This document shows, in pieces, positions 10,489 through 32,200 of a DNA stretch of 64,000 nucleotides. Every line of letters starts with the position of its first letter. Positions within the stretch are counted from its first letter, which is position 1. Below the pieces are notes generated by a model that was not told the origin of the DNA, ran no database searches, and saw only the letters and a list, made by a program, of their open reading frames with translations. Made by a program: the position numbers and the translations under genes. This DNA is from Agarophyton chilense (taxonomy: Eukaryota; Rhodophyta; Florideophyceae; Gracilariales; Gracilariaceae), in NCBI GenBank assembly GCA_030374765.1, contig JARGXX010000068.1:3286001-3350000 (forward strand). Direction: 5' to 3'.

Positions 10489-12481
10489 TTACGTGAACAA
10501 GACACAGATGCCTTCCTCAAGGCTATCCACTCTGGTCCAAACACGGGGGAGGTGTTGCCTTTTCGTTTTGACGATCGAGGAATCTTTGTTCGAACTGTTG
10601 AATCGTGTGAGCAAATCCTGATACCACACGCTCTCAAGAGCAGAGTACTGCATTTGACACATTATTCGCACAGGAGGTGCGAAGCTGTATCTAACCCTCA
10701 GAAGCGACTTTTCTTGGCCAAATTTGGCAGTGTATTGTCATGCCACAGCTAAGATGTGCGTAACGTGCGCGAGGAATAGATTGAAGCTCTGGAAAAAGAA
10801 GAACCCACTGAAGCTGTTCCCAGAAATCGCACCTCTGCAGTATGTCAGTATTGCCATACTTGGGGAATTGATCCGCTCGAAGCGGGGAAACAGATACCTT
10901 TTGGTAATAACTGACCGCTGCTATAAGCTGGTTAAGACTGTTCCGCTGAAACAGATTACTGCTTCCGTGATAGCACGAGCGTTTATCCATCATTGGGTTT
11001 ATTACTAAGGACAACCGGATACTCTGCTCTCAGATAATGGCATGCAATTCGTTGCACGCTTCTTTCAAGATGTATGCACGATAATTGGAGTTAAGAACGT
11101 GTTCACCACTACGTATCATCCGCAATGTAAAGGGCAGGTGGAACGGCACAACCGTACACTACTCACCGCGATTCGGCACTACATCGGAAAACATCCGAAG
11201 GACTGCGATCTGTGTACAGACCCGCTTTGCTACGCGTACAATACGCAAGTGCTTTCGACAACTAAGCTAAAACCCTTCGAATTGGTTATATCTCGACGAC
11301 CAGCGGCTTTGCCAATCAAGGTAAATTCGGAACGAACCGGAGAAGAGTCAATGCCGACGCCGGCTTAGTTTCCCCTACGCTGGAAGAATGTGTTGTGCAT
11401 ACGCACTACACAGGCTGCAAAAGAGATGGAAAAGGCCCAAGCGCGCTACAAGCGTAATTACGACATGTCAATGCGACGGGCACTCCCGGATATCCGAGTC
11501 GGAGGACACGTTTTCGTGAGAGTGGAAAGGAAAGATAGCCGGAAGACTGGAGAGGACAAGAAACGGAAACCACGAAATAAGTTAGCGTCCATCGCTACAA
11601 GACCGCATGAAGTTGTCAAATTCGACGAATATACCGTGGTAATACGGAGAGGTACTGAGGTGGAGCGCATTTCTCGCGACCGAGTAGATGGTGCGCCAGA
11701 TCGAGAAGCTGACGTACAGCGAGAGGAGTCCACACGTGGAGATATTGAGGTGCAGGAGCCACCACAGCCACTAGTTGTGCAAGATCTTGTGGACATACCG
11801 CCGCAGGGCAAATTAATTCCAAAACTGCCACGTGGTGAAAAGAGTTCGGAGATCCGACTTACAGGGCTGAACAACAGTTCCGCGACAAACGGCGCATCCG
11901 CCCATAACATAATCATGGCTCGCACTGTAGCAGTGAGAGGAGACAAGGCGATCCGCACTTTGAGCGCGCAGCGAACTGCAGTCTCTCCCTCAGACCAAGC
12001 GGTGGACGCGAAAGAAATTGAGGATGAAACCTCACGTATCAAAAGTCGTGAAGGCTCTACAGGGAGTCCTGATGACAGAACAGAATCGCCATTTGGCGTA
12101 CAATCAGAAGGAACCGAAGCTGAGATCAGCACGCCAGTTCCGCAAAACGGATTGAAGAGCGTAACTATCCCTGAGGAGTGCAGAAGGTTTCAAGAAAACA
12201 AGAAGTCCACAAGGGACACCGCAGATGTGGAGACGCCACATGGAGATAGTATGAAAGTATCGGCTGACCCATTTGCGGCGGATACCGAGCATTTTGGGCG
12301 ACCCTCAGAACATCCGGGCACCTTAAATCCGGAAGAGAAGAAGCCCAACGGGGCAAGCCTAAGGCGTACAGTGGCAAGTAAAGTCGCGTTTTCCCAGCAA
12401 GGTTCAGAAAATCTGAGAAGGAAGTTGGAAGCACCGGCCAGACCGGAAAGATATAGGGAAACCAGACGACTGGCTTTGTGA
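10489..12481 (+). pseudogene. Element B integrase and basic tail (broken, catalytic Asp lost)
   Basis: The zinc domain is scrambled by a frameshift near 10680 (HYSHRR, later CVTCARN). The core reads VSIAILGEL, where the first catalytic Asp is Ala; C has VSIDILGEL. The other two catalytic residues remain (LLSDNG, GQVERHN). A TAA at 11006-11008 interrupts the core, and a stop at 11366 precedes the C-terminal barrel (11390-11700, KRNYDMSMRRALP). A long hydrophilic linker follows to the stop at 12479-12481. Confidence 0.85.
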
Positions 12482-12490
12482 ACTCCGGAT

Positions 12491-12895
12491 GTGGATGAGA
12501 CGACAGAACGTGATGACACGATTCCAAACGCTATAGCGAACTCTACGGAACCTGTTGACAGGAGTGTCACCCCGACTGAAGATACCGCAACAGAGGAGAT
12601 GGAATACATCATCGAACGCATTCTAGATCATGGATGGCATGCAAGGGACAACAGTTTACTGTTTACAGTGCGATGGTATGGGTATCAACACGAAGAAGAT
12701 ACATGGGGGCCTATACGCAATCTACCACGATCACACATTCTCGCGTACTGCCGATGGGTTGAACTGGATGTCCCAGACAATATTGATGACGCTCTCGTTG
12801 GTTTGGTTGTAGCCGGAGAGCCTGGTCAATTACGACCCCTACAGAAGGTTGAAGTTTCTCCAGGAGGAGGGAGAATGAGGTGGAGGTCCACATGA
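12491..12895 (+). pseudogene. Element B chromodomain ORF
   Basis: The chromodomain spans about 12599-12770: MEYIIERILDHG, FTVRWYGYQHEEDTWGPI, then RSHILAYCRW. The aromatic and EEDTW positions are intact and the domain itself has no stop. It is cut off from the integrase by the TGA at 12479. It would act as the chromatin-targeting tail of the integrase. Confidence 0.85.
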
Positions 12896-13059
12896 ATTGA
12901 GAAGTGAAGCAAGAAGAGCAGAGGCCTCGCAGAAAGAAGAAAAAGCAAAGAAGTTGCAGAAGATCAAAGCGTTTTATTTCGGTTATCTGAAGACTACCGC
13001 TGGTCGGTTTGTTACAGTGCCCTCAGGCAAGAAAGTTAGGGATTCGGGTTATCCGAGTT

Positions 13060-14620
13060 GATACCCATCGAGGAGTGCAAAAGATTCAGCTTCTTCTGTC
13101 GATTTCCTTGAACAAGGAGGGGAGGAATCCCAGCGTCTTCGAGGAACTGCCTCAGATTGCCAAGCCCGGCGTCTTGGGAAGCCACTGTGGGTCAAACAGG
13201 CTCAGGTACAGCGCTCTGAATCGCTACAGGGACCACTGGCGCGATGCCGTCGTTCTCACCCAAAGCCGTATCCTCGAGGATGACCTCTTCTGGCTCTTCG
13301 TCGTAATCGAATTCTTGCATCTCGTCGACGAGTGCGTCTGCCTTCTGAGCAGTTGGATCGGGTATATGACCAGTCGCCTGGGTTGGAGGTATTTCTCGCG
13401 GATTTCCCGCAGAACTTTGGCGTGATCGCCGTCGTTGTGCTGGTTAGTCCAGGGGTTGTACCCGTCAACGTCACCGCCGGGATCGATTCTTCCGGGTGAA
13501 TAGTCACGAGGAAGACTTCTTCTAGCCTGCCTTTCAGAAAAAACTAGGGTCCAGTCAATCTAGTCGATGACATTTATCAGACGCAGAAATTCTTCGTGAT
13601 TGGCAATTGAGCCCAGGACGAGCGACAGATCGAGTTCTCTCGCAAGTTGTCGAGCAATCGGGCTCACATACCGCAAACGATATGTGCCGCATACATCCCA
13701 AAGGATGAACACGGCCATCTTCGCCATGAATTCAGTGTAGACGGCTACCCAGTAACCGTAAGACGGATCATTCACGAGTAAGGAACCTACGTAGGTGATT
13801 GAAGGAGGGAGCTTCACAGAACAGCCATGAGAACTCTCGATCTCATGCCAGTGTTGAGGAATCGGCACGTAGCGCCCGACGCGCGAGTTATACCGAATTC
13901 GGTCCACTTCGAGCATCTGGTATGGAACCAAGTATCCCAGTCGAGATCTGGTACGGCGTTCCCACCGGGGGAATTCCCACTACGGACTATTCCGTTTGCG
14001 GAGATAGCGGAATTCCACGCGTAATTAAAGACTGTCGGAACAGAGGGCCCCGTTGAATATTCCACGAACACTGCGCCACCTTTGGACATCCAAAGGCGCT
14101 AGGTTCTCGACATACAAGTAGACCTCTCCATTTGTTTTGGCACACCAGGTATCGAATAGCCAATCCTCATTGAGAGGCATCGAGCCGATAGTGTGGCATA
14201 ATCGCTGGTACAAAAGAGGGGTGAGTCGTTCGCGCGCCGCTAGCAAGCTCTCGTTTCAGAAGCGACTTATCGCATTGTTTGAGACGGCGCAGTGGCTCAA
14301 AAAATCTGTTGTAAACAACGCATGCCATGGGATACCATCGGGATGGCCACCGGCGACCACATACTGATTCAACAGTGCTTCGTCGCGGACCGCCGCAGGG
14401 AAAACAAAAGGTGCTCACACGTATAAGGCGGAGTGCTGCAGGGGGTCTCTGCCGACGAAGTCAGCGTAATGTGGGAACCTCTGTACGGAGAAGGACGCAG
14501 GTTGCAGAACAGCTGCTGTGGAGGAAGGGTTTGCAGGACCGGGACTGGAAGCCGATTGCGGCAAAGGTACAGTTCGGGAGAGTGGAGCGGAACCTTTAGG
14601 CGGCGCAGAAGTCTGCTGAA
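13060..14620 (-). pseudogene. Element B antisense ORF (broken)
   Basis: Read on minus from about 14620, it matches element C's antisense protein along its length. FPHYADFVGRDPLQH answers YPHPADFYGRDPLDN. DTWCAKTNGEVYLYVENL answers DTWKARTDGEGYSYIETL. SRVGRYVPIPQHW and YTEFMAKMAVFILWD match in the second half. The end at about 13060-13170 reads LRQFLEDAGIPPLLV. Frame changes occur near 14250, 14025 and 13560. I recognise no known domain. It lies between chromodomain and 3' LTR, transcribed against gag-pol. Sequence matching over 500 residues argues for former selection on protein. Confidence 0.7.
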
Positions 14621-14621
14621 A

Positions 14622-14846
14622 GAAGGGTTGTCGAGCCGATCTCTTGTGCATTACGTACCGCCGCATCTGGACATCCGCTTCGTGAATACACGTATTTTCC
14701 CCGTTGTGCAGGCACACCTGGACGCTTTCCGCACACTCCCTTCTCATCTAAGAACCGTCGCTCGCAAGGCTACACCCGCTCTTTGCGGTTATTTATGTGG
14801 ATACCCACTGCAGCGAGACCTCTATGGTCTTCAGTGTAATACCACA
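14622..14846 (+). repeat. Element B 3' LTR remnant
   Basis: About 225 bp match the last 225 bp of the 5' LTR (5059-5283), including the stretch GGATACCCACTGCA. It ends AATACCACA next to the right TAGCG duplication. The first 560 or so bases of the LTR are missing, with the break at AAGGG just beside the antisense ORF start. Confidence 0.75.
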
Positions 14847-14851
14847 TAGCG
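14847..14851. repeat. Target-site duplication of element B, right copy (TAGCG)
   Basis: Identical to 4490-4494. It marks where element A sequence resumes. Confidence 0.85.
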
Positions 14852-16548
14852 GTATCCGCATTAGTCTCCACGGTATCGGGCGCGTTATCATCAGCCATCA
14901 TCGGGTCACCCGGTTCAATGGGAGCGATTTCCTCACCTTCTTTATCCACCATTGGATTACCCGCACTATACGGTTGGATGAAGTCGTTGGAAAAGACAAA
15001 CGTGACGGGATGCCTAGCTGGGACTTCGCGATATAACTCTCGAAGGGCTTCAGAGTGAGCTGCGCTTGTGAGAACACCCTCCCAGGGGTCATAGAAAACG
15101 AAGTCCTCTGTTCGTGGGTTTCGAAGGCCAGGAGACCTGTCGAACGGGGAAGGTCGACCGCTAGCGCGTTGATTCTGCGGAACCTCGTCTCAATTGACGT
15201 CATCGATAATGTCTAGGATGTGAGTCACCTCATCAACGTTAAGTTGGGACCGCAATAGGACGTACATTTCAACCTGTCTCATACAGGATCGCCGTCGCTG
15301 CGGGAGATACCAGATCTGACATTGATCGTAAGCCTCCCAGAGGAGAAACGCGGCAACAAGGACCGTCCATTCTGAGGCGAAGATAGACCAAATCTCGGTG
15401 TGCCAGGAACTAGTCAGGAGCGAGAAAGAATATGTCGCCACAGGCGGAAGCTCCACAAAACACCCCCGAGGAACCTCAAATTGACTTCACCAAGCAGGGA
15501 GAGGGAGGTAGCGTCCTGTAAGGAATCTCGGATGCATCCGTTAAACTTCGACATTCTGATAAGGAATCAGGTACCCTAATTGGGAGCGTGCTCCCCGCTC
15601 GAAGCGGATCATGCGATGAAAACCCTTTTATGGGAACCGCCTCAAGTAGCGAAACACCGCATGGAGGATTTGACCACCCCGGCAGAGGTATCTGGTTGAG
15701 ACGCCTGAAGCGGTACCCTGGGAGGAAGCACCGAATAACTCCAACATGTTTCCTCCATACAGAGCTTCGCTGCAAATACGGAAAAGAGCCACGTCGAGAG
15801 TGCCCTCCGGTTCGACCGGTACCTCGTTGGGGGATCGGTGGTGACGCTGATAAGCGATCGTCACCAAGACGGCGCGCGCATCTTTCATTGCTTCATTCTT
15901 CCTTCGAAGTAGATAGTGAGGGTCCACCGCAATGTACGCTTTCAATTCGAAGGATAATACGGCGACAACGGGAAGGTCCACGGGTAGCATACCATCCTCC
16001 GAATAGGAGTTGATCAACTTGGAGTTGTTACCCGCCTCAGGATGGAACCACGGAGCCCTGGCGTATATGTCCGCATCCTGACCAGGATCCCTCGTAAAGA
16101 GAAGCTCGCGGGAAACCCAACCACTGGGACTGATAGACCCCCAAGGGGAAGGACCGAAAGAGTTCCAGGCGGAGATATTCGACCCAGAAAATTGGTAAAG
16201 CGGCGCAGTATTGGAGCCAGTGAAAGCTTTCGTTCCACTTGGGTTTTTACTTCCCAAGGAATTCGGTGCCCTCGGAATGCGGTTGTGATCGTCAGACGGA
16301 GACATCGCTGGATGGTAGTTGAAAAGGGCTGAGAAGTTCGAATCGCTGAAATCGCTGTCGTCGGATTCAACTTGAGGAATCTCAACTTCGTGAAGACCCG
16401 CTGTCACGGTTTGAGACGCCATCTTAGCGCGCGTTTTGACGGTAACCCGCGTAGCGGTATCCTGCAAGTGAACACGGCGTTCCCGAGCGTTAAGGAGGGG
16501 GAGATGTAGTGCAACGCTTTTGGCAATATTCCGGTGTCGGATACTCAT
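14852..16548 (-). pseudogene. Element A antisense ORF, N-terminal and central part (broken)
   Basis: It starts at about 16548 or 16418 (MASQTVTAG), some 50-180 bp from A's 3' LTR. It runs intact for about 250 residues and then breaks near 15630. Signature stretches shared with element C are TRDPGQDADIYARAPWF, the EAMKDARAV helix and QRHHR. After the break, other frames continue the match: LGYLIPYQNVEV, PRGCFVELPPVATY and AAFLLWEAYDQCQIWYL. The C-terminal end is at 4300-4489 because B inserted inside this frame. Function unknown; no membrane segment or known fold is visible. Confidence 0.7.
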
Positions 16549-16586
16549 AAGTTAATATTGATACTCCTGTGGGGGATGCTCTACTT

Positions 16587-16597
16587 ATGAGAGGAAA
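16587..16597 (+). promoter_or_regulatory. Element A polypurine tract
   Basis: GAGAGGAAAGT lies directly before TGTAGAATT, the probable LTR start. This position and composition are those of a plus-strand primer. Confidence 0.5.
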
Positions 16598-17484
16598 GTT
16601 GTAGAATTTTGGCGCTATGGTAACGTGGTATATTTAGAAGGCAGGGATCCCCGCTATAATTGGTCCCCACATGAGAAGAACATTAATGAGAAATGTAGTA
16701 GTATAATATGTGGCACTAGATTAGTTTATTTAATTAAATAAATTAGACTAGTGGTTACAGTAGAACAGTACTTGGGCCCTGGCGATCTCGCCGTCACCAT
16801 CACCAAGTAACTGGGTACTGTGTGTTCGGCTCTAATTGTGACTGCCTTTGCAGGATTACTACTCCCTTCGGAGGGTATCAGCATTGCCATCGGTTCGTTT
16901 ATCTCACTGGCATCTCTTAAGGAGTGATTCTTACTACACTTTGTGTATTTTCCGGTTTCTTTTATTCCTATATTTTACTGTGTGTTACAGGTTTCTTCTC
17001 CACCCCAGTATTGGGTTGTTTCTTGGTTTCTTGTTATTTCTACTACTTCGTTGGAGTTTCCCCCTTTATTTATCCCTTTATTTTCCCTGTTCCAAGGGTT
17101 ATCGGCATTACTACCGTACACCTCATACTCGTTTCTATCCCCACTTCCGTGGTATATCCTGAAGTCTCCGTGGAGTTACGTCCACATCTGGGAGATACGG
17201 AAGTCTCTACGCTGAGTTCCCCTAAGAAGGGAGCAACGCTTCGAACACCTTCAGTGTCTCTTTCCCTCGCAAGTTATTGCACTCCAATCCGCAGCATTAA
17301 ACTAAAATGGATATATAAGAACTTTATCAAGCATTTATTAATACATTCCTGACTAACAATGAAAGTGTTGTATTCTCTAAGGATTCCTTTATTAATGCGT
17401 TTCCTCTGGAACTGAGAAGCTCTGAACCCGGTATTTGGACCTTCTAGCAAGAAGAAATCAACAATGCGTGAAGTAGCTGATAGG
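16598..17484 (+). repeat. Probable element A 3' LTR
   Basis: It starts TGTAGAATTTTGG after a purine tract, as B (TGTAGCATTC) and C (TGTAGTATTC) do. It contains the AT core TTTATTTAATTAAATAAATT near 16725-16745 and a pyrimidine-rich stretch at 16930-17100, like the B LTR. No CTACA end was found before element D starts at 17485. The LTR is either truncated or its end lies elsewhere. Confidence 0.5.
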
Positions 17485-17938
17485 TGTAACGCAATGACTG
17501 GGGGGTCAGCGTACGGGTCTCGACCGGTGGTAGTGTGGTAGAGCAGGTCTTAAGGTTTCAGTCCTTGACAGCGGCACCCCCAGAGTACTTGGTGCAATGG
17601 GCTGGCGTTTACTGCGTAGTTCTACAGATAGGATCTACGGAAACGATGGCGTGAAGACCAATTGGTGGAACTAATATACCAAAGGGGGTTATTTAGTATC
17701 CTAGCGGAGCCTAACTTACTGTAAGGGAATCGTCACTCGAGCCAAATAAGTAGTACTGGCGAGGCGCAGGGATCTCCCTGGCACTGTAATTCTAGTTTAT
17801 TACACTAATTAAAATAAAATAATAATCGACTTGAGCCCTGCTGAGGTCGGCCCGTCCCCGTGTCACCTGTAAGATACCTCAGGCCCCGGCGGCTTACACG
17901 GCTCAGCCGTTATCGTTGCTCCTTCACATATCTCCCTC
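17485..17938 (-). repeat. Element D 3' LTR
   Basis: The 454 bp match 36981-37427 throughout; shared stretches include TGTAACGCAATGACTGG and GAAGACCAATTGGTGGAAC. The AT core TTAAAATAAAATAATAAT is near 17805-17825. Confidence 0.85.
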
Positions 17939-17951
17939 CTTAGAATTGGAC
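17939..17951 (-). promoter_or_regulatory. Element D polypurine tract
   Basis: On minus this reads AAGGAGGGAGATA directly before the 3' LTR, the expected place for the plus-strand primer. Confidence 0.6.
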
Positions 17952-18219
17952 CGTCACGGCGAAGTCCAGATGGCCTCCTGATTGACCTCGGGGACGCGAG
18001 CACTTCGTTGCTCCTTGTACCACTGGGCGCGACGGGACGTCGCGTCGTCATCGCCTGCGAAGATGCCGGGAAGCGTGAGCTGACCATTTGCGCCGGAGTG
18101 GAAATTAATTTGCCTAAAGACCTAAAATCCCGCGCGCCGTGAGCGCTGGTCATAGGTGCATCTCCGGCGCATTTCTCGGGTCGCCTGTGGAGATGGTCCA
18201 TGGGCTTCTTCTCCTCTGA

Positions 18220-18751
18220 CATTCATTCGGGCCTTTCTTAGTCTGCGTTCTTCCTTTGGCGACCCTCCACACTTCGTCTTCCGTGGTCCAAGCCTGTCAG
18301 CCCGTTCGGGCCTTTCTGGATACCGCGAAATACGGCGCCTGTGGTAGTGTCCGTTCGGAGGATTGGAGGGTATGGCACGACGAGAACATACGCGGCCCTC
18401 GAGGTCGTTTAGTTTCGCTGGAGGACATCATGACCCGTTTCCTAAGGAACCTGGGCATCCATAATATCGTCCGTGGGACCCGGTTCGACGTCGAAGAGGC
18501 CGAGACCATTTTGGATCATGTCCTACAGGTCGTGTAGGGCAAGACTCCCGGGTTCCTTTGGTATGGCCACGATACTGACTCGTTCAAGCCGATTCCGCTA
18601 CACCAGCATGGTCGGGATGACACTCGTGCCTATCCCGCCAAGCCTTTGAGGAATCAACCATCGGACATTCCGAGGCGTCATGTGCCCGACTATTACCCGA
18701 AGGCCATTGCTTTCGATCCCCTGTGCTTCGAGCCTGATGTGAAAGCCACGC
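18220..18751 (+). pseudogene. Element D antisense ORF, first part
   Basis: One frame runs from about 18220 to the insertion point of C. It includes LVSLEDIMTRFLRNLGIH and DVEEAETILDHVLQVV, then an in-frame TAG at 18535-18537, then continues without a break (RRHVPDYYPKAIAFDP). The last codon is completed across the C insertion by 29502-29503, which shows that C landed in a formerly continuous frame. Earlier sequence (17952-18219) has coding-like stretches in other frames. No known domain is visible. Confidence 0.6.
18747..18751. repeat. Target-site duplication of element C, left copy (CACGC)
   Basis: CACGC precedes the C LTR and is repeated exactly at 29497-29501. Confidence 0.92.
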
Positions 18752-19418
18752 TGTAGTATCCGCTCTAACGGAGAGAGCAGACACCTGCGACAGCGTTCAG
18801 GCTGCCGATGTGTCGCTTGTGGCAAAGAAAAAGGTGTGGTAGAGCTACAACACCAGCGAGCTGGAAGTGGGGTGTAAGGCCACTACTCGCCAGCGAAGGT
18901 GAACAGTGCAACTGTAGAACGTTGAGGGAACGTAGGTACGAGACGGCTCGTGAAGTGGTTGGGGGCTGACTATCTATTATAGCTCCTCCGGATCTCCGGT
19001 TAAGGAATCCTAAGCGAGGAACAGAATAGTCATGATGCCCATGTTGTCTCCTTTACTTGGAGTCGGCGCACACCTCTGGTACACTATATACTTTTTGCCA
19101 GGGTGATTGCCCAAATAAATATATAAATAATACCCAGTGGTCAGCCACTTAGCCAAACAACAGTATGGGTATGGTTCCTAATGGACGTCTAGCTACAAAG
19201 GGTAGTAAAACCTGCCACGTGGATCGCCACTACATGCGCCGTTGCAAGCCAGTCCACTCGTGATACCACGTGTTCCACTAATGTACCCTGCCTCCTGGCA
19301 TTCTACGCGTTGTGCCGTTTCATATCACAAGTTGGATGACATCACTCACTTATGAGTTCCAACCGCGACTTCGCGAAAAATCATCATATCGGATTCCCAG
19401 ACATAGTAGAATACTACA
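18752..19418 (-). repeat. Element C 3' LTR
   Basis: On plus it begins TGTAGTATCC and ends GAATACTACA, so the termini are inverted repeats. It matches 28830-29496 at full length. A TATA-like GTATATAGTG (minus) lies near 19083-19092. Confidence 0.92.
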
Positions 19419-19429
19419 TACCCCCCTCG
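19419..19429 (-). promoter_or_regulatory. Element C polypurine tract
   Basis: On minus this reads CGAGGGGGGTA immediately before the 3' LTR. Confidence 0.65.
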
Positions 19430-19442
19430 TTAAGCGCGAACC

Positions 19443-21278
19443 ATGGGGGACGCAAGAAGGGTTTATACACAGTCGGCCCGGTGTTCTGGGTACTCATCGT
19501 CATCAAGAAATCCTCGCCGCCCGACCAACTCTTACAGTTCTCAACAGCATTCTGTTCCTCACCGCTCTTCAGCTCGATCTCTCGCGATGGATCCGAACGC
19601 CGGGTCCAACCCGTTTCAGCCCTCCACCGAAGATGTGCCTTCTGGGGCTCCGTCAAACACTGCTGGTTCTGCGTCGCAGCCTACTGCTCAACTCGGTCCA
19701 TACCGTTCGTTCCTCACCCCGTACACCAGATTCCGGTCGGTACCTTTTCCTCAGCCAACCGTGGCTCCAATGCCGAACGCGGCTTACGTCGCCTCTGCGG
19801 GTGTGATTCGAGCTCCTTCTCGTCGTGCTCAGCGGAGCTACCCGCACCCTGCGGATTTCTATGGACGAGATCCTCTCGACAATGATGAACTTTTCGCGCA
19901 AGCGCCCTGGTTTGATCCAGTTGCTATCCGCGATGACGCGTTGATACAACAGTATGTGCACGGTGGGTACTTCCCTGACGGTATTCCGGAACACGCGATT
20001 TATAGCGACGACTGGGCGAGCCATATTGCTTTGCCAGACAACGCGATTGCGCGATATTCAACGGAAGCCTTGTCCGAAGCCCGTACGAGGTTCACCAAGG
20101 TGATTCACCAGCGTCTTCACCGATTCATCAGTAGGGTTCTCCCCCCGCAGGACTGGGAACTAGATACCTGGAAAGCCCGTACCGACGGTGAAGGTTACTC
20201 ATATATCGAGACACTCGTTGAAGTCGATGTTAGCCGTTGGCGCGGTGTGCGCGGTGTGCGTGATGCAGCTCTCTGATTTCAGCAACCGCTTCTCCGTGCA
20301 GAATTCCGCTTCCTTCGAAAGTGTGACATTCCCTATTGGGATTATCTCCGCTGGGAACGTCGTACTCGATCTTGTTTGGGCTATTTGGTGCCGTTTCAAA
20401 TGATCGAGATTGACCGCATCCGGTGGAACGCGCGCTTCGGGCGCTACATCGGTATTTCGGAACATTGGGCAGCGACCAAAAGTCCTCGTGGTTGCCCTGT
20501 GAAGCTCCCACCGGCGATCTCCTACATCGGGTCCGCGTTGGTTAGATACCCGTTCTGGGGATATCGGACGGTGGTTTATACCGAGTTTATCGCCAAGATG
20601 GCCGTCTTCGTCCTGTGGGATGCTTATGATACCTTTAGAGTTTGGTACATGTCGCCCACAGCGCGAAAGTATGCGAGAGAACTCAATCTTTCCCTTGTCC
20701 TGGGATCCCGTGCGAACCATGCCGACTTCCTCCATCTTGTGGATTTGATCGACAGTATCGATTGGTCGGGAATGCCAGCTGATCAATCCGCTCGCGGCAC
20801 CCGTGCAAGACACTACGACCATTCTCCTGGACGAACAGCAAGTGCTGGAGATTTCGTTTGGTACGAACCCCGGACGCGCCAGTTGATCACCTCCGAGCAG
20901 GCTCGCTTTCTTCAAAAGAACCCGCGTGACATGCCACCGAACCAGCTTACTGGATACGTGTAGGATGCTACTCCATCCGAGAAAGTAGAGGAACCGTATG
21001 AGGAAGCGCCGGGAGCTGAGGCTGAACTCGGTTACGAGGACGAGCCAGAGCTGGCAGGCGTAGCGACTTCCGTCGATCAATCCACAGCGGCGGGAGTTGC
21101 TCAAGAGTACTGTCATGGGTTTACCCAACAACCGAGTGCAGTGCCGGTCGAAGATCCAGGCTTGGATCCGCTGAGGCAGATCCTCTTAGATGCGGGCTTT
21201 CCCGTGGACCAAGTTGAGGGTGATCGCGCACAGCTTCTTGTGAACCTGCGTGCTCGCACGTCTCTTTTATACTCCTAG
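19443..21278 (+). pseudogene. Element C antisense ORF, about 611 codons with two stops
   Basis: One continuous frame starts 25 bp from the 3' LTR and ends with TAG at 21276-21278. It is broken only by TGA at 20274-20276 and TAG at 20961-20963. The N-terminus (to about residue 130) is Ser/Pro/Thr-rich. A conserved core holds RDPLDNDELFAQAPWF, EALSEARTRF with QRLHR, DTWKARTDGEGYSYIETL, LGYLVPFQMIEIDRIRW and YTEFIAKMAVFVLWDAYD. The C-terminus is acidic and ends with LRQILLDAGFPVDQVEG. A and B carry homologues, and D a more distant one. There is no signal peptide, membrane segment or zinc motif. It is encoded against gag-pol, so it needs its own promoter, probably in the adjacent LTR. Confidence 0.75.
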
Positions 21279-21379
21279 AAAAGACTCCTAGTCAACACCC
21301 TTGCGGTGATATCATGATACCAATAAAACTCCGGTGACTTCGTGTCTTCACTTTCCCTTCTTATCTTCTAGTCTTCATC

Positions 21380-21460
21380 TCTTCTCGCTTCTCGAGTTCT
21401 TAACTTCTTCTTCTCGCTTCTCGAGTTCTTCAATCCTTCTTCTCGCTTCTCGAGTTTGTC
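21380..21460. repeat. Three copies of a roughly 29-bp tandem repeat in element C
   Basis: CTTCTCGCTTCTCGAGTTCT occurs three times in a row with short spacers, between the antisense ORF end and the chromodomain. It is pyrimidine-rich on plus. Confidence 0.75.
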
Positions 21461-21570
21461 CAAGGTGATAATCAGTAAATGTCCTTTGCTTGTGTGTCTT
21501 CACGTTTCTTCTTCATGATTTCTTGTTTTCTTCTCGCCTTTCAAGATTTTACTACCTTTGTAGCCCATAC

Positions 21571-22590
21571 TTAGAAATGGGATGTGCCCATGAGCACGAC
21601 TATCGAGAAGTCGATCTCCCTTGGGAGTGGTAATCGCATGCGTCGATGATATCGCAGGAGTTGCGAACGGGGGATATGAGCAATAGGTTCCCACGTATCC
21701 GCTTCCGGAAGAAAACCGTACCAACGGACTCGATACAGTAATTCTCTTGTATCTTCATGCTCGCCATGTTCACATATGCTATCCATAACATATTCCTGGG
21801 CGTTTCCCAATGCTTTCGCTGTTGGCGCGAGACCAGGTTTGAAATGGCTTAGGGCTGACCCAAGCGTCTCTGTGTTAGCAGTCTCCGCGTCGCTAAGCGT
21901 TCGCTCGTCGGCTACCTGTCGTTCTGCCTGCAGGGACAGTGTACTCAATCCTTGAGCACCTTTCTCAGATAAAGAGCTATCCTGTTTTCCAGGTTCCATA
22001 GAAGCGTACTTCTTGCTACTTCTCAATTCCATTCGTGGATGACCTTCCTTCGGTTTTTCCGATTCTGACCGCTGTTGGGTGGATGATGGTGCTTGCACCA
22101 CGACAGGAGGCGATACCTCTTCTTCTTCCTGCCCACGAGGGATGGGAGCCGATATCGGCGGAACAGCGAGTGGCGCTTCAACCGACGGTTCAGCCTGAAG
22201 CGGCAACGGCGCGTGTTCGCGTGCACTCGTTTCCAAGTCCTTGGGGCCAAATTCCAAAACATCTTTCCTGCTTTCAGGTTCCATTTCTGTACTTACGGGT
22301 GTGTGCGTGCCAGGGGGCATATCCCGATATTTCGGAAGCTGTCCGTGATTGGCGTACGCAACCGCCGGCGGTGTGAGATCAGGAGCGTTCTCCTCCGCTC
22401 GAGCCATTGGTGGCGGTTCACTCTCCCCAGAGTCACTTGGGCTTTTGCCTTGACGTTCCGTCGCACTTGCCTCCCTCCTTATTTCTACCAGACACCTGGA
22501 CTTCCAATTGCGGGTCAGGAGCGACTTCAACGCGATCGCGCGATACACGTTCAACGTCCTCACCTGTCTTGATGACCACTGTGTCTTCAT
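21571..22590 (-). pseudogene. Element C integrase tail and chromodomain
   Basis: This open frame encodes a hydrophilic Pro/Glu/Ser-rich linker and then a chromodomain at about 21640-21797: EYVMDSICEHGEHED, LLYRVRWYGFLPEADTWEPI, then RSQLLRYHRRM. The chromodomain has no stop. The frame overlaps the previous integrase frame (22433-22939) but in another phase, so a small indel separates them. In the original enzyme both were probably continuous. Confidence 0.85.
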
Positions 22591-22939
22591 CGATGTCCAC
22601 CACTTTGAAGGGTCCAGCCGCTATTGGCAACAACTTATGACGAGATTCTTCATGTTTGTGCGGTCTTTCAACTCGCACGAAGACGTGACCTCTTACTCGG
22701 ATTGCCGGATTTTCTCTTCGCCTTCTGGCGTCATAGTTTCGCTTATGGCGAGCTTGAGTTTTCGATAACTCTTTAGCGGCTTCTTCCGCTCTGGCCTTCA
22801 GGTCATTCCTCCATTTCAGATGGTACTTAGCCGGGGTCGGCGCGTCCAATTTTGGCTCGTCGTCGAGGGCAACCGGTAAAGCCGGAGGGTTACGTGAGAG
22901 CACGAGGTCGAACGGTGCCGTCTTTGTAGAGGTATGCAC
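22433..22939 (-). pseudogene. Element C integrase C-terminal barrel
   Basis: It continues the integrase directly after a TAA in the YNT-stop-VH position. It contains TAPFDLVLSRNPPALP, ARHKRNYDARRRR, VRGHVFVRVERP and RHKLLPIAAGPFKVV, the GPF/Y-type barrel of Ty3/gypsy integrases. It ends in basic sequence that overlaps the chromodomain frame. Confidence 0.85.
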
Positions 22940-25240
22940 TTACGTATTGTACGCGTAGCACAGAGTATCTGTAAACATGTCCCGTTCTTTCGGGTGGTCC
23001 GTGATGTAGTGTCGTAATGCTGCTATCAGCGTGCGGTTGAAACGCTCCACCTGACCGTTCCATTGCGGATGATAGGTCTTGATAAACACGTTTCGAATGC
23101 CCATAATGCGGCAAACATTCTGAAAGAACTTCGCAACGAATTGCTTCCCATTATCTGATAACAGAACTTCTGGTGGTCCGTATATAAGTACCCAGTGTTT
23201 GATAAACGCCTGTGCGATTACGATTGCGGTTATCCGCTTCAGCGGCACAGTCCGCACTAGCTTCGAGAAGCGGTCAGTGGTTACCAATAGGTAGCGATAA
23301 CCTCGCCTTGAGCGAATCAATTCCCCTAGGATGTCGATACTGACATATTGTAGAGGCGCTTTCGCCTGGAATAACTTCATCGCTTTCCGCTTCCTGTAAA
23401 GCTTCACGCGATTCTTTGCACATGTTGTACACAATCTCACTGTATCATGGCAGGCCATTGCCAAAGTAGGCCAGTAGAAATCTCTTCTTAGAGTCATGAA
23501 CAACTTCGTTCCTCCTGGATGACCACACAATCTGCTGTAGTGTGCCAGATGGAGTTGTCGACTTTTCAAGACGTGTGGAATCACGATTTGATCATGCTTT
23601 TCGACATGTCTTAACAGCATTTTTCGTGAATCGAGTGAAAAGGGGAGCTCCTCCCTCCCGTTAAGACGAGAGCGTATCGACGCACAAAACGTATCGGCGT
23701 GGTGCTCATTGAGGAGCTCAGTGCACGAGATTCGCTCGAGCTGAACTGAAGGGTCAGTGTCTGCTAATGCAAGGAACGGGTCTGCATCCGAATAATCATC
23801 AATGGTCTCTTGTTTCTCTTCTTCAAAAGATGGTGAATGGGTCTCCATGTAGAAGAAAGGTATCTCTTCATCGATTTCGCCTTGGGTTTCGCCCAGTGTT
23901 TTGAGTCGCGATAGCGCGTCAGCTTGGACATTGGCCAATCCCTTCTTATACTTCACTTCGAAATCGAATTCAGAAAAACGTAAGCGCCATCGTGTGAGAC
24001 GACCAGACGGGTCTGTAATGGACAGTAACCATCGTAGAGACAAATGATCCGTGTTGACGGTAAAACGTTCTCCTTGGAGATACGGTCGCAATGTGGTTAG
24101 AGCCCAAACAATTGCAAGGCATTCCTTTTCTGAAACTGAATACTTCTTCTCAGCTGCGTTCAGCGATCTTGACCAGAAACCAATGCGTTTGCGTTCACCA
24201 TCAGGGTGTGTTTGAAAAAGGGCACACCCTACTTGGTACTCGCTAAAGTCGGTATCCACTGAGTATGGTAGGTTGGGGATGGGCAGAGCCAAGACTGGGG
24301 CTGTAATAATCTTTGTCTTCAGCGTGTCGAACGCTTCCACTTCAGCTTGTCTGAATTGTTCCAGCTGTACCGGTTGTCCTTTACGCAGCTTTGCGTTGAG
24401 CGGTGCCGCTATATGCGAGTATGGCGGCACGAATCGTCGGTAGACGTTGCACAAGCCGAGGAAAGAACGCAATTGCTTCTGCGTCGACGGAGGTTGTACT
24501 TCGCGGAGAGCCGCTGTTTGTGCCTCTTTAAGGGCAAGCTGTCCCGTCTTGATCACATGCCCTAAGTTCCGGACGGTGCCAGCCAACCATTCGCATTTCT
24601 TGAACTTCAAGGTGATACCTGCGCTCTGTAGTGCTTCGAGGATCTCCTCGACATGCCGTAAATGGCTTTCCACATCCTGGGAAAAGATGATCACATCGTC
24701 CAAATAGATTAAACAAGTCTTCCACTTGTATCATAAGAGCAAGATGTCCAGAGTACGCTGCAAAGTAGCCGTTGCATTCGTTAAGCCAAAGGGCATCGTT
24801 TTGAAACGGTAGAGACCGGCGTGACACGCAAATGCGGTTTTATCTTGGGTTTCTTCCGCTACAAGTACCTGCCAATAGCCAGAGTTGGCGTCCAACGTGG
24901 TGAACACGTTCGATTCTCCTAAGCTGTCAATACATTCGTCCATTCGAGGCAACGGGTATGTATCTCGAACTGTAACTGCGTTCAGTTTTCGATATTCGAT
25001 ACAGAATCGTAAAGAACCATCAGGTTTTGGAACCAGCACCACTGGTGAGGCCCAAGTAGATTGAGCTGCTTCGATTACTTCTTATTCCAGCATTTTGCTG
25101 ACATTCTCCTCCTCGATTTGGCTAGTTCGCGGTCCCGCTCTGTAGGGTGGTTGGGAGATGGGTCGTGACCCTGGGACCAAATCAATGTGGTGTTCCGTAG
25201 CGGAGATCTCTCCTAGTTTTCCACTCCACATGGATGTATA
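22940..25240 (-). pseudogene. Element C reverse transcriptase, RNase H and integrase core
   Basis: The RT begins at about 25240 and reads FCIEYRKLNAV, PFGLTNATATLQR and the catalytic YLDDVIIF near 24690. A TGA at about 24728 sits ten codons upstream of that box. From there one frame of 587 codons runs through RNase H (SVDTDFSEYQVGCALFQ, SEKECLAIVWALTTLR, NTDHLSLRWLL) and the integrase zinc domain (HYSRLCGHPGG, CTTCAKN). The complete D,D,E core follows: VSIDILGEL, LLSDNGKQF, GQVERFNR. It ends at a TAA that replaces Gln. The catalytic residues are otherwise intact. Confidence 0.9.
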
Positions 25241-25315
25241 CTTCTACAGCATAGACCTGATCTTCGTTCTGTAGTGTTCCGACACATGTGCTAAGTCTAG
25301 CTCATCGACCAGGCT

Positions 25316-26440
25316 TTATGGATTCTTTGCCGTTTGCAATTGATCTCCAGACGAATTTTGCAGTTCTTCGTCTGTGTCACCGACATGGGTTAATCCCAAT
25401 ACTTCTGCTGTAGAAATATGAGTAGGGACCACCACTGTGGGATGAGGCAAAGCTGTTGCAACAACCTGATTATTCGGTATCTGATAATCGTTATCGGTGA
25501 AGTTACTCACTAGTATCCAAAAGAGGCTACCAGGATCAACCTGATTCTTCGGTATCTGATAATCGTTATCGATGAAGTTACTCACTAGTATCCAAAAGAG
25601 GCTACCAGAATCAACCTGAACAATGCCGTTAGCGACTAGCAATCCACGGGATTCGTACATCCGAGTATTCGGTTGAATTACCACGAGTCCGTGTCGTTCT
25701 GTTCTTACTTGAACCCAAGTTTGGGTTTGCGCCTTCAGCATGGCACTCTTCGCTACTCGAATCCTCAGCGGGACATGTCCTCGGGATTTCCCGTATTCCA
25801 TAGATGGTGGAAGTGGAGGTGCTTCAGAGCAACGACGCATTGGCTTGCGAACAATTGGTACCATTGATCCATCATCTAGTTCCAATAGTTTTCTTCGCGG
25901 GCGAATGGCTTCGACAAACTTGTCGCAATAATCACATCCCAGTACCACTGGTGCAGCTAACGTCTTGCAGACGATGAAGTCGACTAGGAATACAAAGCGT
26001 CCCAAATGCACCACGAGTCGAACTGTTCCCTGTGTGTTCACAACATTTTTGTTGGCATCCCGGATGTCCGGTTAAGGACCGTATCGAATACGTTCTAAGT
26101 CAGCAGGAGCGAGCTCCGATTCCCGTAGAAAGTTCGGACCAGCACCTGTGTCCAGGATAGTCAATCGACGAGATAACAGATTCCTGTCAGAGCCGATGTC
26201 TGCATAGACCTTATAGTTTCTTTTAGACACTACCAGGAGGTAACTTTCCCGTTTTGACGGACAAGTATAACGTCTCCAAGGACGATGTAACTGACAGTCC
26301 AACTGTACTCGCTTTCCGTCCGGCGGATTGATTCCGTACGGCGGAAACTTCTGAGTCCTCAAGAGAATCTTGGGCTTCCAAGCGCGGGAGCAGGGAGGCG
26401 AGTTCTCCCTGGTCAGCACTACGGGATCGACTAGTGCCAA
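25316..26440 (-). pseudogene. Element C aspartic protease region
   Basis: The first frame (26440-26072) has the intact retropepsin loop LTILDTGAGPNFL. After a stop near 26070 the second frame (26041-25316) has VLGCDYCDKFVE and flap-region sequence homologous to B. It includes a 25-residue segment repeated twice in tandem (25463-25612) that B has once. The region continues toward RT through short frames at 25240-25316. Confidence 0.8.
25463..25612. repeat. 75-bp in-frame tandem duplication in element C protease-RT linker
   Basis: Two adjacent 75-bp units (25463-25537 and 25538-25612) differ at only a few bases. Each encodes GSLFWILVSNF plus NDYQIP. B has a single equivalent. Confidence 0.88.
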
Positions 26441-26460
26441 CCCCCTAGGGGCTCCCTCAC

Positions 26461-28803
26461 TTAGGTTTCCGGTTGCACCGGCTTATTCGCCTCAAAGGCG
26501 CCTCTTCCTACCGGGGTTCCGGGTTGTAACACGTCAGCATTCCGAGCAATCGGCTTGTCCGTCCGGCGCTTTGGTGTCTGAGAAAACCAACTTTTGGCTT
26601 TCCAATACATGCCCGCCGGTACGCGGCTCCTTTCCTCTTCTGAGAGTGCTTCATAATTCGTCATGATACGACTCAGATCCTTTGCAGGAAGCGTGCATTC
26701 TGCGCTCAAATGGTGTTTTCCATAACATGAATAACAAATCAAACCGTCACGACGGTTGGTCAACATAGGTTGTGAACGGTATGCCGTGCGAGTATCCACC
26801 CATCCGGGTTTCCCGTTCTTAAAATCTCCTTGTGGTGGCACCGTGTAGGGACGGTACATAGGGCGACGGCCCTCCATAGCCATTAGGGCTTCCTCTTCCT
26901 GAGACACCGAGTGTGGGAGATCCACTGTAGGTACAGAAGAGTCCGTATATTCCATTAAATGGACCGCCTTCTCATGCGAGTCACTCCCTTCGGGTACCAA
27001 CGACGAATCTCGTGAGTCAACTGGAGATTACAGAAGTAGCAGTTTGCTGCGCTGATTAACTCTGGCGGAGATCTTCTCCTTTCCCATTGAGGTTCCAAAA
27101 GCCACTGAACAACGGGGGCTACCACGCGCTCTGGCCGCGTCTCCTTCAGCTTTTGCAAACTGAACTAACTCCAAAAAAGAGACTCTTCCATGCTTCTCTC
27201 GATATCGAGCTACCAACGACTTGATGCTTGGGTCCAGCCCGTCAATGTACAAGGTAATCTTATCCTCCGTCGAGTGGACTTTTCCACAGCGGACTGAAGC
27301 TTTGTTAAGCCTTGAGCTGTACTCAGCTTCGCCCTCCTCAGGCTTTTGGGTCACATCCCTTAGGTCCAGGATCGCCTGACATATCGCGTTTGAAGTCGCG
27401 TAACTGCGCAGCAAATACTGCACCGCCTCCGGCCATGAGGTAACGCCGCCTTCACCGGCTGTTAATGATCCGCATACGGAACGATATTGCTCTAAAGCAA
27501 AACCCTTCAGGAAGTGTGGTAAAGACAGAAATGCCTGTGGTTCACTCATCTCTAGAGTGTCTGCTTCGGCAACGAATCGAGTGAGAAAATCGATATCGAG
27601 AATGGTGGTTTTCTCATCAATTGTTAAATCATTAAGGCCGATCTTCAATCGTTTTATGTGATCCTTCACCTTCGCGGTTTCGCGTCCTCAGCGCTTCTTG
27701 CTCTTCACCTTCAGACGGTAGTACCTGTAATTCAGGACCTTCCGATAAAGCGGATTCGTGCAAGGGAGCACCTTCAATTTTCTGTAAGTTGAGCCTTTTT
27801 TTCTTATTAACCACGAAGACGTGTTCTTCTTCCGAGATCGGGACCTTCGATGACCATCATCACTGTCGTCGTCATCTGACGTATCTGAATCATCAGAATC
27901 ATTAGTACTGAAATTGAAGCCCTCTGTACTTGACGATTCATCACTCGAATCCCGTGCGGACTTCCGCTTCTTACGTCGTGACTTCGACTTCTTCGAACGC
28001 GCTTCCTTCAAAGGAGCTCCTTCCTCTTCCAGCACGACTGGTTTAGCAGCAGTCTGCGTATGAACTGCCGCCTCCAGGCGTTCTAAACGAGGGTTAACTC
28101 GAGTGAGGACTTCCTCTACATCCACGGTTAAGCCGGGTAGCGCATCGGGCGTATTCCCGTACCTCTCCAGTAAATGGTTCAAATCCTAACGTAGTGTTTT
28201 CACTGATGCAGAGACCCGCTTCCCATCGGCTTGACGAATAAGTGCTTGATGTGCAATTCATAATTGTTCGACATCAGCGATAAGAGAAGCGATCTGCGAT
28301 TCCAACGCAACCATACGCACACGCGAAGCGCTTGACTCAGACTTGAGACGACGCACTTCCCTGCGCAAATCATCCTCTTCTTGAGGTCCGACGACCTCAG
28401 GGTCAACTACGGCTTCTATGGTGGGCGCGACTGCCGCTGCCACAGGGGCCGGTACATCCGAGAGATGTCGTTCATCATTCACCGAGCGTGAGCGCGACAT
28501 CGCTTGACGATACAGCCGCTCTCCGGCTTCAACAGATGAGGCGAGCCTCGGTTTCGAGGGTGGTCTCGCAGGACCGGGGCTACCAGTACTCGACTGGCTT
28601 CGGGTCTTCGGGATTCTAGACCAATCCTGAGTCCAGGTGCGAACCAAATGGTGTCTTCGACTTCTCGACCACGTGTTCAACCACGATGAATTCCGCAATT
28701 GCCGGAGGTGGTTTGATAAAAAATTACTGTAGTGATTCCACTTCTTTCCAGTATCGATATCGATTCCACGTTCCAGGAACGGATTGTTCAGCGCAGCTGA
28801 CAA
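26461..28803 (-). pseudogene. Element C gag (broken)
   Basis: It starts at about 28803, only 7 bases inside the PBS, with MSAALNNPFLERG. A coiled coil follows (LRREVRRLKSESSASR). Next comes an acidic and basic low-complexity stretch with the KSKSRRKKRKS basic block, then the capsid-like domain (27028-27669, HSTEDKITLYIDGLDP). A CCHC knuckle, CYSCYGKHHLSAEC, lies near 26690-26735. Stops or frame changes at about 28258, 28183, 27690 and 27010 divide it. The equivalent gag of B has different lesions. Confidence 0.82.
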
Positions 28804-28809
28804 CAGTGC

Positions 28810-28827
28810 TTCTAAATCGGGAGACCA
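28810..28827 (-). promoter_or_regulatory. Element C primer-binding site
   Basis: On minus this reads TGGTCTCCCGATTTAGAA, two bases after the 5' LTR end. It is the tRNA-Tyr-like site shared with B, D and E. Confidence 0.8.
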
Positions 28828-28829
28828 CT

Positions 28830-29496
28830 TGCAGTATCCGCTCTAACGGATAGAGCAGACACCTACGACAGCGTTCGGACTGCCGATGGGTCGCTTGCGG
28901 CGAATGAAAAGGGGTGGTAGAGCTACAACACCAGCGAGCTGGAAGTGGGGTGTAAGGCCACTACTCGCCAGCGAGGGTGAACAGTGCAACTGTAAAACGT
29001 TGAGGGAACGTAGGTACAAGACGGCTCGTGAAGTGGTTGGGGGCTGACTATCTATTATAGCTCGTCGGGAGCTCCGGTTAAGGAATCCTAAGCGAGGAAC
29101 AGAATAGTCATGATGCCCATGTTGTCTCCTTTACTTGGAGTCGGCGCTCACCTCTGGTGCACTATATACTGTGTACCAGGGTGAGGGCCCAAATAAATAC
29201 AGAAATAATACCCAGTGGTCAGCCATTTAGCCAAACCACTGTATGGGTATGGTCCCTAATGGACGTCTAGCTACAAAGGGTAGTAAAACCTGCCACGTGG
29301 ATCGCCACTACATGCGCCGTTGCAAGCCAGTCCACTCGTGATACCACGTGTTCCACTAATGTACCCTGCCTCCTGGCATTCTACGCGGTGTGCTGTTTCA
29401 TATCACAAGTTTGATGACATCACTCACTTATGAGTTCCAACCGCGACTTCGCGAAAAATCATCATATCGGATTCCCCGACATAGTAGAATACTACA
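28830..29496 (-). repeat. Element C 5' LTR
   Basis: 667 bp, the same length and order as 18752-19418. On plus it begins TGCAGTATCC (one change in the terminal repeat) and ends GAATACTACA. Confidence 0.92.
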
Positions 29497-29501
29497 CACG
29501 C
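29497..29501. repeat. Target-site duplication of element C, right copy (CACGC)
   Basis: Identical to 18747-18751. Confidence 0.92.
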
Positions 29502-30265
29502 CATTGGTTCCAGCTGGTATGTTTGATGGAGAATCCTTCGGGGAAGATCCCTTCGTCCTGCCCGTGGATGGCGTCAATCATCCGGTCGAGTCCGCTGATT
29601 TGTTGCCTACCGCTTCCCCTCCTCCAGCTCCTCAGGGCGCTGCTCCTCAGGATGAGCTCTCATACGAGCCGCCCGTCGCCCAAGTGGACATATCTCCTGG
29701 CGAGGTTACTGTAGAAGCCGAAAGTCCTCTAGGTGATGTGTTGGCTCAAACGTCCACTGGGGGCGTCGAAATCGCTCTGTCCTCTCCGTTGCCACAATTT
29801 CCCGCTTCGGTCACGGCTGCGGCTTCGGATCTCCGTTATGTTTTCCGTACCGTTGGTATTACGGACTCGATGGACATTGCGACTGTCCTGAGAGAAGTTT
29901 GCTCTTGGGCGCGTCGTTCGGCACGCTACGCCGCGATTGTCCAACAGGGTCAGTGTCTGAAGACCGCCAAGGTCAATATCTTGCTGGAGAATGCCCAAGT
30001 GATGTTCCAGAGGGTTACTGCCGCCTTGGATGCCCAGTATGGACTAAATTTGAGTGACCGGGAGGCTTCCGATGGTGACAATAGTTTCTCAGGAGAATCT
30101 CCGCCGAAGAAGCGTGCTCGCCTCGCTGGGGCCGGTCCTAGTGGTATAATAGGCTCCTCGGGTGACACTAGTCTCGGTTTCGCTTCTGCAAGTTCCAATG
30201 AGGACGACGGAGTTACTCCAGCGCCGCCCCAGTTAGTCTTGTTGGTGTTCGGAGCGCTTTTGTGA
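29502..30265 (+). pseudogene. Element D antisense ORF, second part
   Basis: This is in frame with 18220-18751 once C and one duplication copy are removed. It contains an acidic Pro-rich stretch, then DLRYVFRTVGITDSMD and VLREVCSWARRSARYA, where the LRxxFxxxG pattern recalls the C-terminal motif of the A, B and C antisense proteins. It then has a long helix (NILLENAQVMFQRVTAAL) and a classical basic nuclear-localisation-like motif, PPKKRARL. It ends at a stop at 30265 about 300 bp from the chromodomain. No known domain is visible. Confidence 0.65.
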
Positions 30266-30550
30266 ACCTTGAGGTCATGGCGAGGGCTGTTAAGCCTCTG
30301 CAAGCTAGTCAAATAAAGTAATGCCTGTGCTTTCCCAAAGTAGCTCCTGCATTCCTCAAACTTGCGTGCCCCGGGACGGCGTCCGAACCTTGAGAGCGTC
30401 TCAAGTCTTCTTCAACTGTTGCCTGAGGACTGAATTTGTTCCCTGATGCGGGCGCTACGGCGAACGGTCGTGTCAGGAGGCGTTTCAAGAGACGCTTTGG
30501 GATTATTCGGGCCAAGGGTTGCCCCCTCCTGAAGGCAGCGATCTGTGCTG

Positions 30551-30711
30551 CCGATTTTGCGCCAATAGCGGGCGATAATTTTAGCCGGAATGGTTTGAGG
30601 CTCTTGCCAAGTGTCTTCCTCAGGTGTGTAGCCGAATCAACGGACGCGATATAGCATAGTTCTATTTTTGCCCCGACCGGCGGAGATGATGCGCTCAATC
30701 ACATATTCCGG
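30551..30711 (-). pseudogene. Element D chromodomain (stop in the core)
   Basis: One minus frame reads PEYVIERIISAGRGKN, then MLYRVR, a TGA at 30639-30637 in place of the core Trp, FGYTPEEDTWQEPQTIP, and KIIARYWRK. The TGG-to-TGA change removes both the aromatic cage residue and the rest of the domain. Confidence 0.8.
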
Positions 30712-30890
30712 TTGTTGGTCATTCTCCGGTAGGAGAGTGTGGTCCAGAGTGGCGAATCCATCGGAGTCGGTTCGAAAAGATGGGTCATCATCATTGGCAT
30801 TGACTGTCGGGTCCATGGGGATACTCGGGTCCGCGGGAACTGCCTTAGGGGGTGTGGGGACTTGAGCATCGATCTTAGACCGTAGTGATT

Positions 30891-31370
30891 TTACTGGACC
30901 AGGGGACTGGAATTTTGGTGATTGGGGGAGCTGGGGGCTCGTGTCACCCGATCAATCGATACAGTGTCCTGTAGTCCGTCAATTATTAACGTAATGGTGT
31001 GTTGATTGGCCGTAAGGTCTTTGTATGGTCCCTTAAAGCGAGGTAAGAGCTTTGGCGTAGGGCCGTTGAGTTCATCACTGTCCTTCGGTGGCCGGTCCAG
31101 GCAAACTAATTCTCCTCTCTCCAAGATCGGTGTGTTCCAGACGGCTTTGTCGAAATTGACCTTGTAGCGCCGTTGAGCTTTGGTCAGAACAGCCCTAGCC
31201 GATTTGATAATGCGGTCGATGCGTCGGCACGAGTAGTGCTTCGCCTTGGTAGGATTTATTCCTTCAGTTATGTCCTGGGGTATAATAGACTCCTAAAGGT
31301 CAAGAGCCATCGGCTGTGGCGATCTCGTCAGCGTCAAATCGAAAGGTGTTGTCCCCGTGTAAGCGTGCAC
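30891..31370 (-). pseudogene. Element D integrase C-terminal barrel
   Basis: It follows the TAA at the YNT-stop-VH position. It contains TGTTPFDLTLTR, then KAQRRYKVNFDKAVW, ERGELVCLDRPPKD and LPRFKGPYKDL, the GPY/F-type barrel. The first third is interrupted by a further stop. It ends at 30891. Confidence 0.8.
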
Positions 31371-32200
31371 TTACGTGTTGTAGGCATAAACCAGTGGCTC
31401 AACATAGTCGTCCCAGTTAAATTGGTGCTCTGATACGTTGTGGGCCAATCGATCCAGAAGAGTACGATTGAAGCGTTCGGCTTGGCCATTGGTTTGCGGG
31501 TGGTATGAGGTGGTGGTTATATATTTGATACCTAAGGTAGAACAAACGTGTGAGGAGAAGTTGGATACAAACTGGCTGCCAGTATCTGTAAAGAGGTAGA
31601 GTGGCATGCCATATGGATATACCCTGTGGGACAAGAACGCTGCGGCGACACCCGTAGCTGTAGTCTTCCCGAGGGGTAGGGTTCGGGTAAGTTTGGTAAA
31701 CATATCGGTTCATACCAAGATAAACCGTTCCCCATGAAACGACTTAGGCAAAAATCCAAGTATATCCATTGCGAAAAATTCCATCGGACCTGTGACGAGG
31801 AAGAGCTTCAATTTGGGCAGACGGCTGGCGCGAGACCCTCATATTTGTGCGCACGAAGTATAGTTCCGTGCGGTTTGCCATAGGTCCTGCGCCATTAGTG
31901 GCCAGTAGAAGAACTTCCTTAGGGTCTGATACATTCGTCGGCCTCCAGAATGACTAGCCATGCGAGTGAAAAGGGCGAGGTAAAGAAATCGCGCACTTAA
32001 TGACCTTGGTACTATCTGTTGGAATGCGCCATTCAGTGGAGAGCGGCGACACAATAGTCCGAATCGGTCGTACTCGAATAAGCCTCCTGGGGTTCCTACC
32101 AATTGGACTGTTTCCTTGCAGTACTCGTCTTCGAACTGCGCTTTAGAAGTTCCTCAATAGTTAAAGGGAGAAGCTACTTATCCTCTGGGGCTATCGCGTT
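31371..32200 (-). pseudogene. Element D integrase zinc and catalytic core (broken)
   Basis: The zinc part (31839-32102) reads LFTRMASHSGGRRMY and YTSCAQI; the first His of HHCC is lost. The core (31371-31760) has LDILG near 31757-31743, LFTDTGSQF and GQAERFNRTL, so the D,D,E residues can still be traced across frame changes at about 31710 and 31840. It ends at TAA 31373-31371 where B has a Gln codon. Confidence 0.8.

Follow-up and report, generated by a model that had tools for sequence, protein, structure and literature searches.

What is the long open reading frame (ORF) that runs against the direction of gag-pol near the 3' end of several long terminal repeat (LTR) retrotransposons of the red alga Agarophyton chilense? 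The stretch that raises the question (the window: 64,000 nucleotides of contig JARGXX010000068.1, positions 3,286,001 to 3,350,000) carries nested chromodomain elements, here designated A, B, C, D and E, which were recognised from LTR repeats and pieces of pol. A profile search located the antisense gene in four of them, A to D, always on the strand opposite gag-pol and between the chromodomain and the 3' LTR. We propose that it is a true accessory gene encoding a protein that would act in trans, probably in the nucleus, and help the element through host control, a reading to which we give a probability of roughly 0.45.

None of the copies in the window is intact. The B gene (19434–21275, plus strand) was delimited by profile matches and has a likely start methionine at 19587 and in-frame stops at 20274 and 20961. 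The A gene (about 14600–13051, minus strand), which adjoins the A 3' LTR at 14623–14844, is broken by stops and has profile matches in seven frames, and the profile matches to the C gene (about 16305–14863, minus strand) are likewise interrupted by stops. At the amino-acid level A is 47–55% and C 29–32% identical to B, which bears out the sequence-only reading from which this work started, where the A, B and C proteins had been aligned by eye. The D gene is split because element B is inserted within it: one part lies to the left of B (18304–18750, plus strand, D profile E 4e-36 and 4e-40) and a C-terminal tail that has lost its natural stop lies to the right (29495–30232, plus strand, E 4e-124). 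The two LTRs of B are 94.7% identical and the element is flanked by a 5-bp target duplication, CACGC, at 18747–18751 and 29497–29501. The frame at 29360–30262, formerly read as the D frame, is actually the D tail joined to LTR sequence of B. A long antisense frame had been described in each of A to D; a homologous gene opposite gag-pol is indeed present in all four, but the A, B and C frames are only pieces with stops inside.

Copies elsewhere in the genome were sought in 79.8 Mb (135 contigs), and it should be noted that the match lists from different queries are limited in length and overlap, so that the counts are not additive. With the B query the best 150 of 1,496 candidates all matched, 18 of the 150 rows having a stop-free frame of at least 607 amino acids (by eye). 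Of 1,179 candidates from the C query, 129 were scored as matches; 38 of these have a stop-free frame of 640 amino acids or more (by eye), and most of the 129 form a second large clade, ‘T640’, that is about 40% identical to C. At least 150 scored matches were obtained with each of the A, D and E queries (for E, five of the best 150 of 577 candidates had a stop-free frame of at least 839 amino acids, by eye), and 99 with P0011, an A. chilense protein whose residues 1–406 are found in the genome at 100% identity with one stop inside the match. The stop-free frames that were read, measured from stop to stop and not from a methionine, are 611 amino acids long in B (L009, L011 and L014), 640–650 in T640 (L052, L057, L058 and L060), 584 in A (L061), 698, 577 and 598 in D (L069, L070 and L071, respectively) and 842, 856 and 876 in E (L079, L080 and L081). 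Open frames of 577–876 amino acids thus exist outside the window, in answer to the suggestion that a lack of any intact copy in the genome would speak against a gene. In B and T640 alike, an internal methionine at the same alignment position is the likely start.

Comparison of group profiles by hhalign gave 91.9% (E 7e-7) for A/B/C against D, 94.2% (E 1e-7) for A/B/C against E and 97.6% (E 4e-12) for D against E, each E-value applying to one comparison by itself and the profiles of D and E being built from three sequences each. Judged from these profiles, the D and E genes are remote homologues of the A–C genes. That D might be an unrelated gene had been suggested by a TGA codon inside most of the search rows, and was rejected when further copies showed this TGA to be the natural stop. 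Similarly, the copy of E in the window (46618–57811, plus strand), in which a profile search of the window did not find the antisense gene, had suggested that E was a lineage without it, and this too was rejected as the related copies L076, L077 and L079–L081 have the gene. Within the E family the short copies (L078 and the window copy, 55250–57811) carry no antisense gene between chromodomain and LTR, and the long copies do.

Protein searches returned 5, 20 and 20 relatives in overlapping sets, the named ones coming from A. chilense and Gracilariopsis chorda. Searches of Pfam (with 37 alignment members), PHROGs and PDB sequences gave no convincing match, in agreement with the sequence-only reading, in which the proteins matched no family. 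Because the protein could be assigned to no known family of viruses or transposons, an origin from the host is possible, and the gene might then be a recently captured host gene carried as a functionless passenger. We consider this very improbable, since five diverged lineages carry the gene, as do other species, and it is under selection (see below); furthermore, no host relative was recognised among the matches, most of the unnamed ones being of untraced origin.

Selection was assessed on alignments built from DNA alone, with an excess of mismatches at third codon positions read in the antisense frame. The copy designated F (L072) aligns with B (L011) over 1,350 nucleotides without gaps, with mismatch frequencies of 0.251, 0.184 and 0.542 at the three codon positions (p 6e-33) and a ratio of nonsynonymous to synonymous rates (dN/dS, or omega) of 0.138. 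Omega for the antisense frame was 0.138 for F against A and 0.193 for B against A, and the most distant pairs gave about 0.41 (T640 against B, p 3e-11) and about 0.34 (T640 against A, p 3e-15); all of these values are rough, since synonymous changes have reached or nearly reached saturation. Between lineages, purifying selection acts on the antisense frame. With homologues in A to E and selection acting on the protein, the earlier proposal of an unnamed accessory gene kept across diverged chromodomain elements is upheld as far as the gene itself is concerned. Preservation across such different element lineages argues that the gene probably serves the elements in some way.

The same comparisons bear on two explanations in which the antisense protein is of no account. 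The first is that the antisense frame is open only as the shadow of a coding sense frame, and among 30 B loci at least 16 do have an open sense frame of 271 amino acids, while the sense frame that shares its third positions with the antisense gene also has a low omega (0.30–0.37). However, that frame contains 27–49 stops in the compared pairs as against 0–4 in the antisense frame, and all other frames in the same pairs have omega values of 1.1–2.2, so that this explanation is refuted. The second is that the antisense RNA alone regulates the element through base pairing with the gag-pol transcript, the reading frame being incidental. Antisense RNAs have been discussed in this capacity in other retroelements (PMC7264820), but here conservation is of amino acids and not of bases, which makes the protein the product of importance; the codon-position result strongly disfavours a purely RNA-based role, the alignment moreover yields a confident predicted protein fold, and we would be surprised if it proved correct.

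Within families the picture is different. Among 30 B copies and 11 T640 copies (the frameshifted L055 being excluded), in a test of little power, omega for private changes was 0.88 (p 0.17) in B and 0.80 (p 0.12) in T640, and for shared changes 0.72 (p 0.045) in B and 0.92 (p 0.76) in T640. The sequence-only reading had held that synonymous and nonsynonymous changes occurring equally often among copies would speak against a gene; change within a family does come near to neutrality, but between the closer lineages omega is 0.14–0.19. Taken together, selection between lineages and near-neutral change within families indicate that active elements preserve the protein and that copies decay after insertion, as expected for a transposon gene that is selected only during the active life of its element.

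The position of the gene was examined in loci across the genome. In the best 30 of 150 scored B loci the LTR abuts the start of the gene in all 30, and the chromodomain lies downstream on the opposite strand in 29. A chromodomain was found in six of 15 C-type loci, five of 15 loci of T640 and its kin, none of four A loci and four of seven D loci, and an upstream match to one of the three LTRs of the window in 6/15, 2/15, 0/4 and 1/7 of the same groups; every chromodomain detected was on the strand opposite the antisense gene. For E, where the pairing lists comprised the best 150 of 767 candidates for pol ends and of 577 for the antisense gene, 21 of 30 pol ends (contigs C1, C3, C13, C71 and C99) have an antisense match on the opposite strand 1.4–2.5 kb downstream (by eye), none of the 30 has a match on the same strand and nine are without a partner among the matches listed. 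By place and strand the gene fits a positional class, that of antisense ORFs between pol and the 3' LTR, opposite gag-pol.

An AlphaFold2 model from 37 sequences has a mean predicted local distance difference test score (pLDDT) of 77, a predicted template modelling score (pTM) of 0.71 and 284 of 547 residues at or above a pLDDT of 90. The ordered core is predicted at about residues 71–445 and is mostly helical with a dip in confidence near 381–400, a pair of C-terminal helices is predicted at 502–541, and residues 1–64 and most of 448–502 are predicted to be disordered. The product would thus be a protein of about 500–700 amino acids or more, with a disordered N terminus, a helical core of about 370 residues and a disordered, mostly acidic linker, ending in the A/B/C group in a short helix pair. 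None of the 14 PDB chains returned by Foldseek was a convincing fold match, and in BFVD, a weak test, the best hit had an E-value of 1.2.

These features could also suit a structural or particle protein, such as a second Gag-like protein, a nucleocapsid partner or a chaperone, which would reside in the particle and not regulate from the nucleus. The large ordered helical core with no enzyme match is what such a protein might show, and its conservation resembles that of pol (omega 0.149 for part of pol, compared between the decayed copies of B and A in the window). Structural proteins are, however, usually bulk products of the sense RNA and not of an antisense gene, and there was no fold match to viral structural proteins in BFVD, with the weakness just noted; we regard this role as unlikely. 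A cofactor for integration or chromatin targeting, working with the chromodomain integrase at insertion, appears to us an equally doubtful candidate: the gene co-occurs with chromodomain-bearing pol in five lineages, but the Pfam search recognised no chromatin-binding domain in its product.

We therefore return to an accessory protein that acts against host control. Since the start of the B gene abuts the 3' LTR, the most likely place for transcription to start is within that LTR or immediately inside it, and the transcript would head towards gag-pol, lying tail to tail with it. The protein would then act in trans, probably in the nucleus, and would help the element past host control, either at transcription or by countering silencing. 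As to nuclear location, a basic pattern resembling a nuclear localisation signal (NLS) lies near the C terminus in both D proteins (2/2) and in P0015, and the three E proteins have RGRGRGG and a basic stretch in their N-terminal part (by eye); these NLS-like and RGG-like stretches are weak hints. Several observations weigh against the proposal. The NLS-like pattern is absent from seven of the 12 proteins scanned, B and T640 included, and in A and P0013 it falls inside the ordered region. At least two E copies (that of the window and L078) are without the gene, which may be dispensable, or the protein may be supplied to them in trans. Signs of selection within families are slight or lacking, and in the groups other than B the expected layout was seen in fewer loci, the stretches retrieved there being short. 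Finally, the gene is known here from DNA sequence.

The elements themselves are arranged as follows. Element A (5060–14844, plus strand) has LTR repeat matches at 5060–5281 and 14623–14844 and a chromodomain in the frame at 12482–12892; element B (18752–29496, minus strand) has LTRs at about 18752–19424 and 28830–29496 and a chromodomain at 21574–22620, those of A and B being matched by PF00385. Element D, with B nested inside it, extends from 17485 to 37427 (minus strand; LTR matches 17485–17928 and 36981–37427). Element C is incomplete in the window: A appears to lie inside it, with C pol at about 1–5000 and the remainder to the right of A; a search for a target duplication around A found none. 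A chromodomain profile built in this analysis matches in four of seven D copies and six of 15 C-type loci as well as in the E copy of the window and in L076–L078. The label chromovirus is taken here from the presence of a chromodomain, and placement in the chromovirus reverse transcriptase clade may differ; chromodomain elements of Ectocarpus have been reported outside that clade (PMC12477816).

Other features of the window were also recorded. The 5' LTR of E is split by about 2.1 kb (46767–48852), the flanking parts at 46618–46766 and 48853–49317 matching the two parts of the 3' LTR; a frame in this insert matches the DDE_1 transposase (47210–47980, E 2e-8), and the insert looks like a DNA transposon. 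In the pol region of B, 25462–25619 is an 83-bp tandem duplication (96% identical). A third copy of the D LTR lies inverted at 39455–39899, 74–76% identical to the other two, and may be a solo LTR or mark the end of a further element. An open frame of 534 amino acids (59158–60759), outside the recognised elements and perhaps a host gene, has no Pfam match up to E 1. One of 498 amino acids (62505–63998), truncated by the end of the window, matches nothing in Pfam up to E 0.01 and resembles leucine-rich repeats by eye.

Antisense extra ORFs between pol and the 3' LTR (aORF-3R) have been reported in the plant elements Retand, Grande, RIRE2 and PvRetro13 and in fungal Boty, where they are present in most copies, are described as having no clear function and have been suggested to be regulatory (PMC7264820, PMC11963269). 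The red-algal gene is like these in place and orientation. At the protein level the comparison was made with TRP28 (PF04195) of Retand, the other four being compared by position alone: a genome search with PF04195 gave nothing over the cut-off and one match under it (E 0.05), and none of the 37 alignment members matched, so that the red-algal protein is of another family as far as tested. The host elements differ too, being red-algal and chromodomain-bearing, whereas Retand is described as a non-chromovirus (PMC11963269). The env-like genes of plant elements are likewise extra genes between pol and the 3' LTR, but in the sense direction (PMC7264820). HBZ of human T-cell leukaemia virus type 1 (HTLV-1) is nuclear, and the antisense promoter of HTLV lies in the 3' LTR (PMC7264820, PMC11963269). 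Both it and the red-algal gene are antisense genes at the 3' end of a retroelement, an analogy of function for which homology is not claimed; the red-algal product has a large predicted helical core, and its transcription from the LTR is presumed. A literature search by titles and the openings of abstracts, outside subscription papers, found no such red-algal gene described. The gene thus fits a known positional class with an unnamed protein family. More tentatively, we suggest that this family, of unmatched fold, is ancient in red-algal chromodomain retrotransposons, a core gene expressed antisense from the 3' LTR, and that it is an independent counterpart of the antisense regulators of plant elements and human retroviruses which counters silencing or steers integration. 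Set beside the plant antisense ORFs near the 3' LTR, the red-algal case, apparently of separate origin, brings measured selection on the protein, a confident structural model, many intact frames and E copies with and without the gene, which together make the role of an antisense protein for its retrotransposon testable. If such genes arose at this position repeatedly, accessory proteins encoded in antisense may be a solution that LTR elements adopt in general.

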